Shown piece after piece: positions 3,552 to 12,779 of a stretch of 64,000 nt of DNA. The notes under the pieces were generated by a model. That model searched no databases, had not been told where the DNA came from, and was given only the letters and a program-made list of their open reading frames with translations. The position numbers and the translations under genes are program-made. Numbering within the stretch: the first letter of the stretch is position 1; the number at the start of each line of letters is the position of its first letter. This DNA is from Flavobacteriales bacterium. GTDB lineage: Bacteria; Bacteroidota; Bacteroidia; Flavobacteriales_C; GCA-002722245. Location of the stretch: contig CANFBW010000006.1 of assembly GCA_947444925.1 (NCBI GenBank), positions 20,533 to 84,532 of the forward strand, written 5' to 3'.

Positions 3552-4376
3552 TTATTTTTTTCTTCTTTCGAGTATATATTTATTTGACGCTTTCTTTTTT
3601 GATCTTGTTTTGTAGCCTTTAGCCGGCATACCGTTTCTAGATCTTGGATGTCCACCTGATGATCTACCTTCACCACCACCCATAGGGTGATCCACTGGAT
3701 TCATCACAACACCTCTAACTCTCGGACGGATACCCAACCATCTTGATCTACCCGCTTTTCCTGATACTACCAATTGGTGGTCAGAATTAGAAACAGATCC
3801 TACAGTTGCCAAACATGTTACCAAGATTTGACGTGTTTCACCTGAAGGCATTTTCAATACGGCAAATCTACCGTCTCTTGCCAACAATTGCGCAGAAACA
3901 CCAGCACCTCTTGCAAATTTACCTCCTTGACCAGGATTCAATTCAACGTTGTGCACTACAGTTCCTAAAGGCACCTCAGAAAGCAACAAAGTGTTACCTA
4001 CTTCAACTGGTGATCCTTTTCCTGATTGAATGGTTTGACCCACTTTCAATCCGTCTGGAGCAATAATGTATCTTTTTTCACCGTCAACGTAGTTCAACAA
4101 AGCAATACGTGCGGTTCTATTTGGATCGTACTCAATAGACATCACTTTAGCTGGAATGCCAAACTTCTCTCTTTTAAAGTCGATGATTCTGTATTTTTGT
4201 TTGTGACCACCACCAGTGTATCTCATGGTCATTCTACCGGAATTGTTTCTTCCGCCGCTTCTGGTGTTCTTAGCGATCAAGCTCTTCTCTGGCGTGTTCG
4301 TAGTGATTTCCTCATAATTGGGAACCACTTTGTGACGCTGAGTAGGAGTAGTCGGTCTAAATTTTAATAAGCCCAT
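3552..4376 (-). CDS. rplB: 50S ribosomal protein L2
   Basis: [21 protein letters not shown]...; [16 protein letters not shown]. Confidence 0.98.
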
Positions 4377-4381
4377 ACTTC

Positions 4382-4672
4382 TTAAATGTTGTTGTATAAA
4401 TCAATAACTTGTCCTTCCGCCAAAGTCACTATCGCCTTCTTGTTGATAGGTGTTGAACCTGTCATCATTCCTTTCTTAGTGTACTTTTGCTTTACTTTTC
4501 TTGGTGTTCTAAGCGTGTTGATTGCTTCTACTTTAACACCGTACATTTTTTCAATGTCTTTTCTGATCGTCACCTTGTTGGCTTTATCGTCAACGATAAA
4601 ACCGTACTTGTTCAATTTCTCCTGGATAGAAGACATTTTTTCAGTAACAATTGGTTTCTTAACTACACTCAT
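4382..4672 (-). CDS. rplW: 50S ribosomal protein L23
   Basis: [42 protein letters not shown]. Confidence 0.96.
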
Positions 4673-4677
4673 GACTC

Positions 4678-5304
4678 TTAGCTTAATGTATTTTCTAATT
4701 CTTTAACTGAACTTTCGATAAACACCAATTTGTTTGTGTTTAAAATATCGTAAGTGTTTAACTCACCTACCGAAAGAACTTTGATACCCTCTAAATTTCG
4801 GGAGGACAAATATATGTTTTTATTCTGTTCGGCTAACACGAACAACACTTTTTTATTCGTCAACTCTAGATTCTTCAAGATAGAAACGAAAGACTTTGTC
4901 TTTGCAGCATCCAAGTTAAAGTCCTCAAGAACAGAGATATTCGAGTTTTTAGCTTGATCTGTCAAGGCAGATTTTCTAGCCAATTCTTTTACTTTTTTAT
5001 TCAGTTTAAAACCGTAAGTATGTGGTCTTGGACCAAAAACAGCTCCTCCGCCTTTGAATAATGGGTTTCTGATAGATCCGAAACGTGCACCACCAGAACC
5101 TTTTTGTTTTCTGATTTTACGCGTACTACCTCTAACTTCGCCTCTTTCTTTGGCTTTGTGAGTACCTTGTCTTCTGTTTGCTAAATGTTGTTTAACATCT
5201 AGGTAAACCGCATGTTCATTCGGTTCGATCGCAAAAACTGACGCTGGCAAGGTTACTTTTTTGCCGGTCGCTTTTCCTTGGATATTTAAAACTGATAATT
5301 CCAT
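4678..5304 (-). CDS. rplD: 50S ribosomal protein L4
   Basis: [41 protein letters not shown]. Confidence 0.97.
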
Positions 5305-5918
5305 TATTTCTTAATTATTACGTAAGATCCTTTTGCACCAGGAACAGCTCCTGAAAGAACCAAAATATTTCTCTCTGTCAATACTTTCAGAACAACCAAG
5401 TTGGTCACTTGTACTCTGTCACCACCCATTCTACCAGCCATTCTCATTCCTTTGAATACTCTTGAAGGTGTAGAACAAGCTCCTAATGAACCTGGCGCTC
5501 TACCTCTATTGTGCTGACCGTGAGTTTGACCACCCACACCCGCAAAGTTGTGACGTTTAACAACCCCTTGGAAACCTTTTCCTTTTGAAGTTCCAGTGAT
5601 AGAGATTTTGTCTCCTTCAGCAAAAACATCAATCGTTACAGATTCACCCAATTTAGCGTCGTTCAAGTCTTTAAACTCTACTAGTTTTTTCTTAGGAGTA
5701 GTGTTGGCGTTTTTAAAATGACCTTGCAACGCTTTAGTTGTAAGTCTTTCTTTTTTCTCACCGTAACCCAATTGAACTGCGGCATAGCCGTCTTTTTCAA
5801 CTGTTTTTACTTGAGTCACAACACAAGGACCTACTTCTACGATGGTACATGGAATATTTTTTCCATTTGCATCGAAAATGCTGGTCATTCCTATTTTTTT
5901 TCCTATCAATCCTGACAT
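5304..5918 (-). CDS. rplC: 50S ribosomal protein L3
   Basis: [32 protein letters not shown]. Confidence 0.98.
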
Positions 5919-5964
5919 GGCCTATTTATTTAAAATTCTTTATTCTTTACTGATCTACTATTCA

Positions 5965-6270
5965 CTAAACTTTGATCTCTACTTCCACACCGCTTGGAAG
6001 TTCAAGCTTCATCAAAGCGTCAACTGTTTTAGAAGTAGAGCTGTAGATGTCAAGAAGTCTTTTGTAAGAACTCAATTCAAATTGCTCTCTCGCTTTTTTG
6101 TTAACGTGTGGAGATTTCAACACAGTAAAAATTCTTTTGTGAGTAGGCAATGGAATTGGTCCACTAACAACTGCTCCAGTAGCTTTTACTGTTTTTACGA
6201 TTTTTTCAGCAGACTTGTCTACCAAGTTGTGATCGTAAGATTTTAATTTAATTCTGATTCTTTGGCTCAT
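5965..6270 (-). CDS. rpsJ: 30S ribosomal protein S10
   Basis: [25 protein letters not shown]. Confidence 0.98.
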
Positions 6271-6291
6271 TTGATTAACTATATCTAATTA

Positions 6292-8397
6292 CTATACAGA
6301 TGCTTCTTTTTTTCCTTTTGCTTTTGCTACTACTTCTTCCGTTACACTTTGAGGTGTTTGCTCGTAGTGCGCGAATTCCATTGTTGAAGTTGCTCTTCCT
6401 GAAGTGATGGTACGAAGATCGGTTACATATCCAAACATAGCTGAAAGAGGAACCGTTGCGCTAATTACTTTAGCTCCCGCTCTTTCGTCCATACCCAATA
6501 TTTGACCTCTTCTTTTGTTCAAGTCACCAATCACGTCACCCATGTTCATCTCAGGAGTCAATACTTCAAGCTTCATGATAGGTTCCAATAAGATTGGTTT
6601 TGCTTTTGGCAAAGCCTCTCTGTAGGCAACTTTCGCACAAATCTCAAATGATAAAGCGTCCGAGTCAACTGCGTGGAATGAACCGTCTAACAATGTTACT
6701 TTCAATGAATCAATTGGATATCCAGCCAAAACACCGTTTTGCATTGAGGCTTCAAATCCTTTTTGAACAGATGGCACAAATTCTCTTGGAATGTTACCAC
6801 CTTTCACAGCGTTAATGAATTCCAATCCAACTTTACCTGCTTCTCCTGGTTCAATTTTAACAACGATATCGGCAAATTTACCTCTACCACCTGATTGTTT
6901 TTTATAAACCTCTCTGTGTTCGATTGAATTTAAGATCGCCTCACGGAAAGTTACTTGAGGAGCACCTTGGTTTACCTCAACTTTAAATTCACGTTTCAAA
7001 CGATCCACCAAGATTTCAAGGTGAAGCTCGCCCATACCACTAATGATGGTTTGACCAGATTCTTGATCTGTTTTAACTTTAAAGGTTGGATCCTCTTCAG
7101 CCAATTTATTTAATGCCATACCCAATTTATCAACATCTGCTTGAGTTTTAGGCTCAATAGCGATACCGATAACCGGTTCAGGGAATTTCATTGCTTCTAA
7201 TACGATAGGGAATTTTTCATCACACAAAGTATCTCCTGTACGGATGTCTTTAAAACCAACACCTGCTCCAATATCACCAGCTTCGATGAAGTCAACAGAG
7301 TTTTGTTTGTTGGCGTGCATTTGAAACAAACGTGAAATACGCTCTTTGTTTCCAGTACGTGTGTTGAAAATATAAGATCCTGCATCCAAACGTCCCGAAT
7401 AGGCACGGAAGAAACACAAGCGACCAACAAAAGGGTCAGTTGCGATCTTAAACGCAAGAGCAGTAAATGGTTCTTTTACATCTGGCTTACGAGTTACCTC
7501 TAAACCGGTGTCAGGATTGATACCTTTCAATTCTGGTTTGTCCATTGGACTTGGCATCAACTCCATTACCAAGTCAAGCATTGTTTGTACACCTTTGTTT
7601 TTGAAAGATGACCCACATACCATTGGTACAATCTTGTTGGCAACGCATGCTTTACGCAATGCTGCCAAAACTTCCGCTTCAGTGATGGTTTCAGGAGCAT
7701 CGAAGAATTTCTCCATGATCTTGTCATCAAACTCAGCAACAGCTTCCAACATTTTTTCTCTCCACAAAGTCGCTTCCTCCAACATATCTTCAGGGATAGG
7801 CACTACTTCGTAAGTCATTCCTTTATCGTGCTCATTCCAAATCATTCCACGGAAGTTGATCAAGTCAACTACTCCTTTGAATGTTTCTTCAGCACCGATA
7901 GGCAATTGCAAAGGAACTGCATTACCTTTCAACATTTCTCTTGTTTGCGCAACTACTTTTAAGAAGTCAGCACCTTGACGGTCCATCTTGTTAACGAAAC
8001 CGATACGGGTTACATTGTAGTTGTCGGCCAAACGCCAGTTGGTTTCTGATTGTGGCTCAACACCATCAACAGCAGAAAATAAGAATACCAAACCATCCAA
8101 AATACGAAGGGAACGGTTTACCTCTACGGTAAAGTCAACGTGACCTGGAGTATCAATGATGTTGATTTTGTAATTGTTATCGCGGTATTTCCAAAAACAA
8201 GTAGTGGCCGCTGACGTGATTGTGATTCCGCGCTCCTGCTCCTGAACCATCCAGTCCATAGTAGCAGCACCGTCATGAACTTCACCAATCTTGTGGTTCA
8301 CACCTGTGTAGTACAGAATACGCTCAGTCGTCGTTGTTTTACCAGCGTCGATGTGGGCAGCGATCCCAATGTTTCGTGTATATCTTAAATCAGCCAT
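6292..8397 (-). CDS. fusA: Elongation factor G
   Basis: [24 protein letters not shown]; full-length 701 aa. Confidence 0.98.
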
Positions 8398-11746: not shown

Positions 11747-11794
11747 AACCAATCACATTAAAATAAATTCTATTTTAGCGCAAAAAAAAAAATA

Positions 11795-11911
11795 ATATCA
11801 AAGCCCACAAAAAAAGAATGGTTAGCACCCGAGTTGGAATTATACGAAGTAGATCAAACAAAAGGAGGAATTACCACTTTAGGCCGTGAAATAAGTGCAC
11901 ATAGGTCCTAG
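11795..11911 (+). CDS. Putative lasso-peptide-like RiPP precursor (un-annotated small ORF; non-ATG or lost start)
   Basis: Frame reads (ATA)SKPTKKEWLAPELELYEVDQTKGGITTLGREISAHRS*; W-x2-P-x-L-x7-T spacing of lasso leaders; candidate core GG..., Glu at core position 9; 7 nt upstream of HprK-like kinase ORF. ATG absent, so start is uncertain. Confidence 0.5.
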   Translation: MSKPTKKEWLAPELELYEVDQTKGGITTLGREISAHRS

Positions 11912-11918
11912 CTAAAAT

Positions 11919-12779
11919 TTGATCAGCGCGAAACAAAATAGCAATAAATATGAAGCAGGTGGTTTCGTCATTGAAACCACCTTTTCTTTTTCGTGTCTTG
12001 AGTACAGTAAAGAGACCAGCACGAGTGCTTGGAGTAGAGGCAAGGTACTTTACCCCGATAAAATAAATGAGAATGAATCTCCTTTAATTGCAATAGAAGA
12101 CACCTATTTCTACCGCGTATTCCATCTTGCTAAAATTGAAATCCGTAGTGACGACAATGTTGTCATTGAGCTTTTGGTGCCTGAACAGGAAGACCACCTC
12201 AACACCATAGCGCTTCATATATTGGGATTGCTGGCTCAGAAAAAAAATAAATTCCCTTTGCATGCCGCCGCTATTTGCTATAAAGGACAAGCCTACCTCT
12301 TTACTGGACTTTCAGGAGCAGGCAAATCAACTTGTGCAAAAGCATTGTCTGATGCCGGATTCGAATACATATCCGATGAACATGCTCCGCTCATTGTACA
12401 TGACAACAAGCTGCATTTGCAAGTCGTGTGCACATCATTGCACTGGGCTGCATCGCCTTTGCAAGAAAAAAAATGGCAACGGCAATTGCATCAAAACACA
12501 AACAAAACGCTGCCCGTAAACACCATTTACGCCCTTGAACTCAACACTGACCGCGCCGTCATCTCCAACAAAAACACTTTTGACGCAATTAAAATATTGC
12601 AAGAAAACCACTTCAAGCCATTTTTACAATGGAACAAAGAACACCACATGCAGCGTTATCGATTCTGCATTGACATTGTTGAAAAATGTACAATAAAAGC
12701 TTTCGCCCGGCCGAAAAACACCGACAACTTAATGCAAAACCTGCAAATACTGATAGAAGATATTCGCAGCAATAGTTGA
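11919..12779 (+). CDS. HPr kinase-like (HprK-related) protein, possible RiPP precursor kinase
   Basis: FPLHAAAICYKGQAYLFTGLSGAGKSTCAKALSDAGFEYISDEHAPL: P-loop plus downstream acidic motif typical of HprK-like kinases; TTG start. Confidence 0.75.
   Translation: MISAKQNSNKYEAGGFVIETTFSFSCLEYSKETSTSAWSRGKVLYPDKINENESPLIAIEDTYFYRVFHLAKIEIRSDDNVVIELLVPEQEDHLNTIALHILGLLAQKKNKFPLHAAAICYKGQAYLFTGLSGAGKSTCAKALSDAGFEYISDEHAPLIVHDNKLHLQVVCTSLHWAASPLQEKKWQRQLHQNTNKTLPVNTIYALELNTDRAVISNKNTFDAIKILQENHFKPFLQWNKEHHMQRYRFCIDIVEKCTIKAFARPKNTDNLMQNLQILIEDIRSNS

Follow-up and report, generated by a model that had tools for sequence, protein, structure and literature searches.

Prochlorosin-type RiPPs are made by one set of enzymes that acts on precursors scattered in the genome, which have their leaders in common and differ in their cores. 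In the paeninodin family of lasso peptides, the substrate of the kinase PadeK is the C-terminal Ser of the linear precursor, and a His-Lys-Asp-Asp motif of the kinase has been called essential in a review (PMC9266682). According to a 2026 paper, phosphorylated paeninodin-like lasso peptides, as well as the linear polyphosphorylated peptides (LPPs), are restricted to Bacillota (PMC13381572).

A first-pass annotation of the stretch of DNA considered here (64,000 nucleotides in its entirety and referred to as the window) had described a small frame followed by a gene encoding an HprK-like kinase, and had interpreted the pair as specifying a phosphorylated lasso-type peptide. The precursor-kinase observation was confirmed as real, and the interpretation placed upon it was partly supported. 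The following features were delineated.

11771-11779, + strand: Bacteroidetes-type -7-like box TATTTTAGC, read directly, with a putative promoter role
11792-11911, + strand: lasso-type precursor gene with a putative ATA start, encoding (I)ISKPTKKEWLAPELELYEVDQTK followed by GGITTLGREISAHRS, with the stop codon TAG at 11909-11911
11792-11863, + strand: leader region of the precursor, with WxxP at 11819-11830 and Thr(-2) at 11858-11860
11864-11908, + strand: core peptide of 15 residues, with Gly1, the candidate ring acceptor Glu9 (11888-11890) and the candidate phosphosite Ser15 (11906-11908)
11919-12779, + strand: gene for an HprK-like kinase of 286 residues with a TTG start, assigned from family models, fold, alignment and tree
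11957-11982, + strand: terminator-like hairpin (11 pairs) with a T-rich tract behind it, among the 5' codons of the kinase gene
12306-12332, + strand: P-loop GLSGAGKST of the kinase, with the invariant His115 upstream and Asp153-Glu154 downstream

Re-reading of the small frame returned the coordinates and sequence that had been claimed for it. The open frame at 11792-11911, comprising 39 codons with ATA taken as start (ATA ATA TCA AAG CCC ... TCC TAG), translates as IISKPTKKEWLAPELELYEVDQTK-GGITTLGREISAHRS, with KKEWLAPELELYEVDQTK corresponding to the leader and GGITTLGREISAHRS to the core. The spacing reported for the leader (Trp at 0, Pro at 3, Leu at 5 and Thr at 13, and then one residue before Gly) was likewise correct, as were Gly1, the Glu at position 9 and the C-terminal Ser of the candidate core. 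The leader conforms to the lasso arrangement [Y/W]xxPx[L/V..] with Thr at -2, and the core to the lasso arrangement of an amine at residue 1 and Asp or Glu at positions 7-9, with Gly1 and Glu9 being found in both of the orthologues described below. The NCBIfam model of the paeninodin family (NF033524) matched the precursor with an E-value of 1.7e-4 and a score of 21.2 bits, below its cut-off of 27 bits, and an annotated paeninodin precursor on a Priestia plasmid (MKKEWKKPELEVLDVNKTM-LGGSGEYTD...) presents the same leader layout. A strict pattern combining the leader, Thr(-2), the acidic residue and a Ser/Thr terminus was matched once in the window and in none of 200 random 64-kb sequences produced by a second-order Markov model with the trinucleotide make-up of the window, while a looser leader/core pattern was expected 0.02 times per 64 kb. 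A chance ORF was ruled out by this pattern null together with the orthologue in a congener.

Among 395 genomes of the class, an orthologous kinase was detected in just one other, G001, which belongs to the same genus. There, on contig 73 (CAMBXP010000073.1), the kinase gene is directly preceded by the frame IKIKPAKKQWIAPELDEYTIDQTK-GGVTPAVSEVRTWQLT. An absence of conservation in relatives had been named beforehand as an outcome that would count against the proposal; the search found the pair to be conserved in G001. No cassette was encountered beyond the genus in the 395 genomes, and one genome-contig scan returned only the G001 record. When the two copies were compared by the Nei-Gojobori method, pN/pS values of 0.22/0.74, 0.54/0.74 and 0.35/0.80 were obtained for the leader, the core and the kinase, respectively. 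Given that synonymous sites are near saturation between the copies, the leader and the kinase are under clear constraint, and the variability of the core, in which G1, G2, T4 and E9 are kept and the other residues vary, is as expected of such peptides.

Examination of the flanking genes revealed the two copies to occupy different sites. In G001, the pair lies between the gene for a 310-aa protein and panB, beside dnaK; in the window's genome and in G002, G004 and G005, these two genes adjoin and the pair is missing. The reverse holds for the window site, upstream of tex, at which G001, G002, G004 and G005 carry no pair. That the genes are still together at two distinct sites argues for a precursor and a kinase that move and work as one unit. 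Visual inspection of the aligned inserts revealed no terminal repeats common to both. The precursor-kinase unit is, as such, real, conserved and mobile, and is paeninodin-like in design.

The kinase ORF was found as described, with its TTG start 7 nt past the precursor stop, its P-loop and its end at 12779, and its HprK-like identity was backed by family models, by fold and by kinase matches across phyla. The Pfam Hpr_kinase_C model gave a weak score, NCBIfam HprK-related models matched at 1e-8 to 1e-9, and the top fold matches of an AlphaFold model of the protein (mean pLDDT 70.5) were the HprK/P proteins of L. casei and Coxiella (E about 2e-5). His115, the P-loop Lys136 and Asp153 were invariant in all ten kinases aligned. 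These may correspond to the first three residues of the His-Lys-Asp-Asp motif and are followed by residue 154, which is Glu in the window kinase and its congener orthologue and Asp in the remaining aligned kinases, and which may not be the second Asp of the motif. In a small kinase tree, which had weakly resolved inner branches and lacked an HprK/P outgroup, the window and congener kinases paired (100/100) and fell on the side of the kinases of lasso clusters, away from the LPP-like kinases. Plasmid matches of the kinase included that of the Priestia paeninodin cluster and a Thalassobaculum lasso-like cluster. The two features of paeninodin-type tailoring, namely, an adjacent HprK-like kinase and a C-terminal Ser, are both present in the window pair; the congener precursor ends in Thr. 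Were the kinase to act on another substrate, as would a regulatory HprK, its adjacency to the peptide would be incidental, a reading in line with the low identity to known lasso kinases and the altered second acidic residue. Such an explanation is nonetheless considered very improbable, given that two species have the genes side by side at sites that are unrelated and that, in the tree without an HprK/P outgroup, both kinases fall on the side of the lasso-cluster and not the LPP-like enzymes.

Between the upstream in-frame stop codon (TAA at 11759) and the Trp codon, the precursor frame holds no ATG, GTG or TTG, leaving ATA 11792/11795 as the sole start candidate in the window; these three codons are also absent in frame from the congener copy. 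An upstream in-frame ATG/GTG/TTG start was thus rejected, as was a fusion of the precursor to the upstream gene, there being no such frame. AUA initiation is weak in bacteria. A codon-by-codon alignment pairs ATA with ATA in the two copies, and hand counts on both loci gave the same spacing of 12 nt between the -7-like box and the ATA, namely, from TATTTTAGC to ATA 11792 in the window and from TATATTTGC to ATA 7537 in the congener (L028). This agreement between sequences suggests that translation of the precursor may begin at AUA, two copies amounting to less than proof.

The hairpin inside the kinase gene is similarly found in both species, with 11 pairs in the window (folding z = -5.1) and 10 in the congener (z = -2.8), within about codons 13-22 of both kinase genes. 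Between the two versions, one pair has changed in a compensatory manner and another has gone from G-C to G-U. No such hairpin was seen in two cluster kinases folded across the equivalent stretch, and no known RNA element was found around it in Rfam. Transcription probably drops at this point, an arrangement that would yield more precursor than kinase. The tract that follows the hairpin has, in the congener, expanded to a T10 run that shifts the frame (L028, 7740-7750), and the frame past this run is without an ATG/GTG/TTG start until 8035. The shift may reflect a sequencing error, RNA polymerase slippage or decay, which look alike here.

A decaying cluster had been among the options raised at the outset, and it remains the main rival, i.e., the pair would be the decaying relic of a formerly functional cassette whose start codon is gone. 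Decay is suggested by the absence of ATG, GTG and TTG in both species, by the frameshifted congener kinase and by other stray precursors that are plainly broken (the second copy on C112, those on C105 and C17, and that on C42 of G001, with TGA). Against this stand the constraint on the leader and kinase across saturated synonymous divergence, the window kinase that is intact through 286 codons, and the agreement of the two copies in where the ATA lies and in its distance from the -7 box, such that a relic is deemed rather unlikely.

The first-pass annotation had also remarked that no lasso B or C gene lies beside the pair. This held for the surroundings, in that searches of the 84-kb contig bearing the pair for B1, B2 and cyclase found nothing, but not for the genome as a whole (3.24 Mb in 123 contigs), which was searched as that annotation had advised. 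A B2 protease is encoded on C77 (84.4 bits; lasso-specific cut-off 33) and a B1/PqqD protein on C113 (80.3 bits; lasso-specific cut-off 80), with the end of C113 carrying the C-terminal 127 residues of a cyclase, a fragment that shares 58% identity with the full-length G005 enzyme. Full-length cyclases were found in G001 and G005, for which the lasso cyclase model was the best match, below its cut-off. The window's genome further encodes an NTP_transf_5 nucleotidyltransferase and a second HprK-like kinase that is split over C77/C112, together with a sulfotransferase, a JmjC protein, methyltransferases and an ABC transporter, as well as local precursors. Complete versions of the lasso locus are present on contig 1 of G001 and contig 82 of G005. 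As the contig ends C77/C112 and C77/C76 overlap inside the kinase and an Asn-synthetase gene (L016/L017 and L016/L019), the genome's own lasso locus was broken by assembly and not necessarily in the cell. Full lasso loci with a kinase, a sulfotransferase and a PRMT-like methyltransferase were seen in L029 (1068-12803) and L030 (6963-16864), the G001 locus adding a cytochrome P450 and a squalene-hopene-cyclase-like protein, and the combination of kinase, sulfotransferase and cyclase was met again on a Thalassobaculum plasmid (L067).

A genome devoid of lasso machinery is ruled out by the B1, B2 and cyclase-fragment matches. On the same grounds, processing in trans is now favoured among the options that had been listed. 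There is no need to invoke a minimal precursor-kinase system that suffices by itself. B2 was detected in 3 of the 11 genomes of the family, both cassette carriers being among those three, a co-occurrence with a chance probability of 3/55 and weak on its own.

The other stray precursors were all found by a profile search built from ten aligned peptides of three genomes, in which K-K-W-P is invariant, Thr(-2) is present in nine of the ten, and the aligned acidic residue (Glu) and a C-terminal Ser or Thr are present in all. One on C66 of the window's genome (MKTQQNTTDKKIWVAPEFTSLIVEATE-GKFLVSVPENTFFGS), beside ordinary genes, and one on C16 of G001 (...EETE-GGASPALSEALSGLLSS) are ATG-started and share the design of the window precursor. 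More lie beside ordinary genes on C83 of G005 and C37 of G002, the latter genome having one stray precursor and no B2 match, and damaged or atypical versions were seen on C17, C104, C105 and C15 and on C42 of G001. The stray WxxP loci L094 and L097-L103 include some that are intact (Glu9, C-terminal Ser) and some that are truncated or without the ring acid. Among the strays seen, those with their own kinase are confined to the window pair and its orthologue. Given the short contigs, some strays of the window's genome could be nearer to the main locus than is apparent, a caveat that spares the window pair, embedded as it is in an 84-kb contig without machinery matches. A non-exhaustive search of the literature on scattered lasso precursors returned no relevant match.

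An LPP-like locus was also noted in the window's genome, on C5 (41000-54000; L020, at 4329-7192 and about 7310-7780). This locus encodes an HprK-like kinase, an archaeal-type signal peptidase I (59.4 bits; cut-off 51.85), a nucleotidyltransferase-like protein and PqqD, together with four tandem near-identical YxxP peptides (MKKKYEKPEVIKVDLDSEIS...) that differ mainly C-terminally; a similar kinase/peptidase/PqqD set is found in L032. On C16, a third and weaker PqqD-like protein (L021, 3146-3400) is encoded next to decarboxylase-like ORFs and a protein of 351 residues, and may be part of another RiPP-like locus. The window pair lacks what marks an LPP, namely, a YxxP leader with an archaeal-type signal peptidase and an RRE in the locus. 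Still, a linear, LPP-like peptide that is phosphorylated and trimmed without ever being cyclised could be envisaged where the kinase is adjacent and the cyclase is not, and in a genome that holds the C5 locus. This is considered improbable, as the leader is of the WxxP form, tied to paeninodin-type B1 rather than to LPP RREs (PMC13381572), as Glu9 and Thr(-2)-x-Gly are conserved, and as the kinases most distant in the tree are those of the C5 type.

It is reasonably likely that the pair serves as a satellite cassette to a paeninodin-type lasso system and is matured in trans. In such a pathway, the PqqD-like B1 encoded elsewhere in the genome would bind the WxxP leader, the kinase of the cassette would phosphorylate Ser15, the B2 protease of the genome would cleave past the Thr-x pair, and the Asn-synthetase-like cyclase would link Gly1 to Glu9, generating a 9-residue ring and a six-residue, putatively threaded tail, with the hairpin serving to lower kinase relative to precursor. 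As PadeK acts on the linear precursor, the presence of a kinase gene beside a stray precursor is in keeping with this order of events. The satellite-cassette reading draws on the leader and core hallmarks, the conserved congener copy, purifying selection on the leader and kinase, a pair that is mobile yet together, B1, B2 and the cyclase fragment in the genome, the co-occurrence with B2, the plasmid lasso-kinase matches, the HprK/P fold and the ATG-started strays. It is weakened by the want of an ATG/GTG/TTG start, the frameshifted congener kinase, Glu154, a cyclase represented in the assembly by just 127 C-terminal residues, a G002 stray without B2 and the small numbers behind the co-occurrence. 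Of the peptide first proposed, the lasso/paeninodin type is borne out by conservation and family models; phosphorylation and threading are predicted. More tentatively, Bacteroidota might possess a dispersed lasso repertoire, in which mobile precursors or AUA-started, hairpin-attenuated precursor-kinase cassettes are served by one trans-maturing locus.

Were this so, lasso peptides would work in a prochlorosin-like manner and genome mining keyed to neighbouring B/C genes would miss strays, phosphorylated paeninodin-like lasso peptides, and possibly LPPs, would extend beyond Bacillota, and the role of C-terminal phosphorylation could be tested against kinase-less strays in the same cell.

Of the known systems, the paeninodin/PadeA family, with its kinases PadeK, ThcoK, SyanK and the pseudomycoidin PsmK (PMC9266682), shares with the window pair the W-x-x-P leader, Thr(-2), an acidic residue 9, a C-terminal Ser and an HprK-like kinase beside the precursor, with homologues of B1, B2 and the nucleotidyltransferase being present in the genome. 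Unlike members of that family, the window pair is found in Bacteroidota and apart from B1/B2/C, its precursor scores below the family cut-off and is without a canonical start, its kinase has D-E in place of D-D, and a hairpin lies inside the kinase ORF. LPPs (PMC13381572) likewise combine an HprK-like kinase with a short precursor bearing a [Y/W]xxP leader, whereas in the window the leader has Trp rather than Tyr, the core is lasso-type, and the signal peptidase, RRE and nucleotidyltransferase are not adjacent. As with the prochlorosins, one enzyme set is accompanied by genome-scattered precursors whose leaders are alike and whose cores diverge; here, however, the chemistry would be that of lasso rather than lanthionine formation, the precursors are fewer, with several broken, and one has its own kinase. 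The window pair is, as such, best read as a known kind of peptide in a new arrangement, dispersed in the manner of the prochlorosins.
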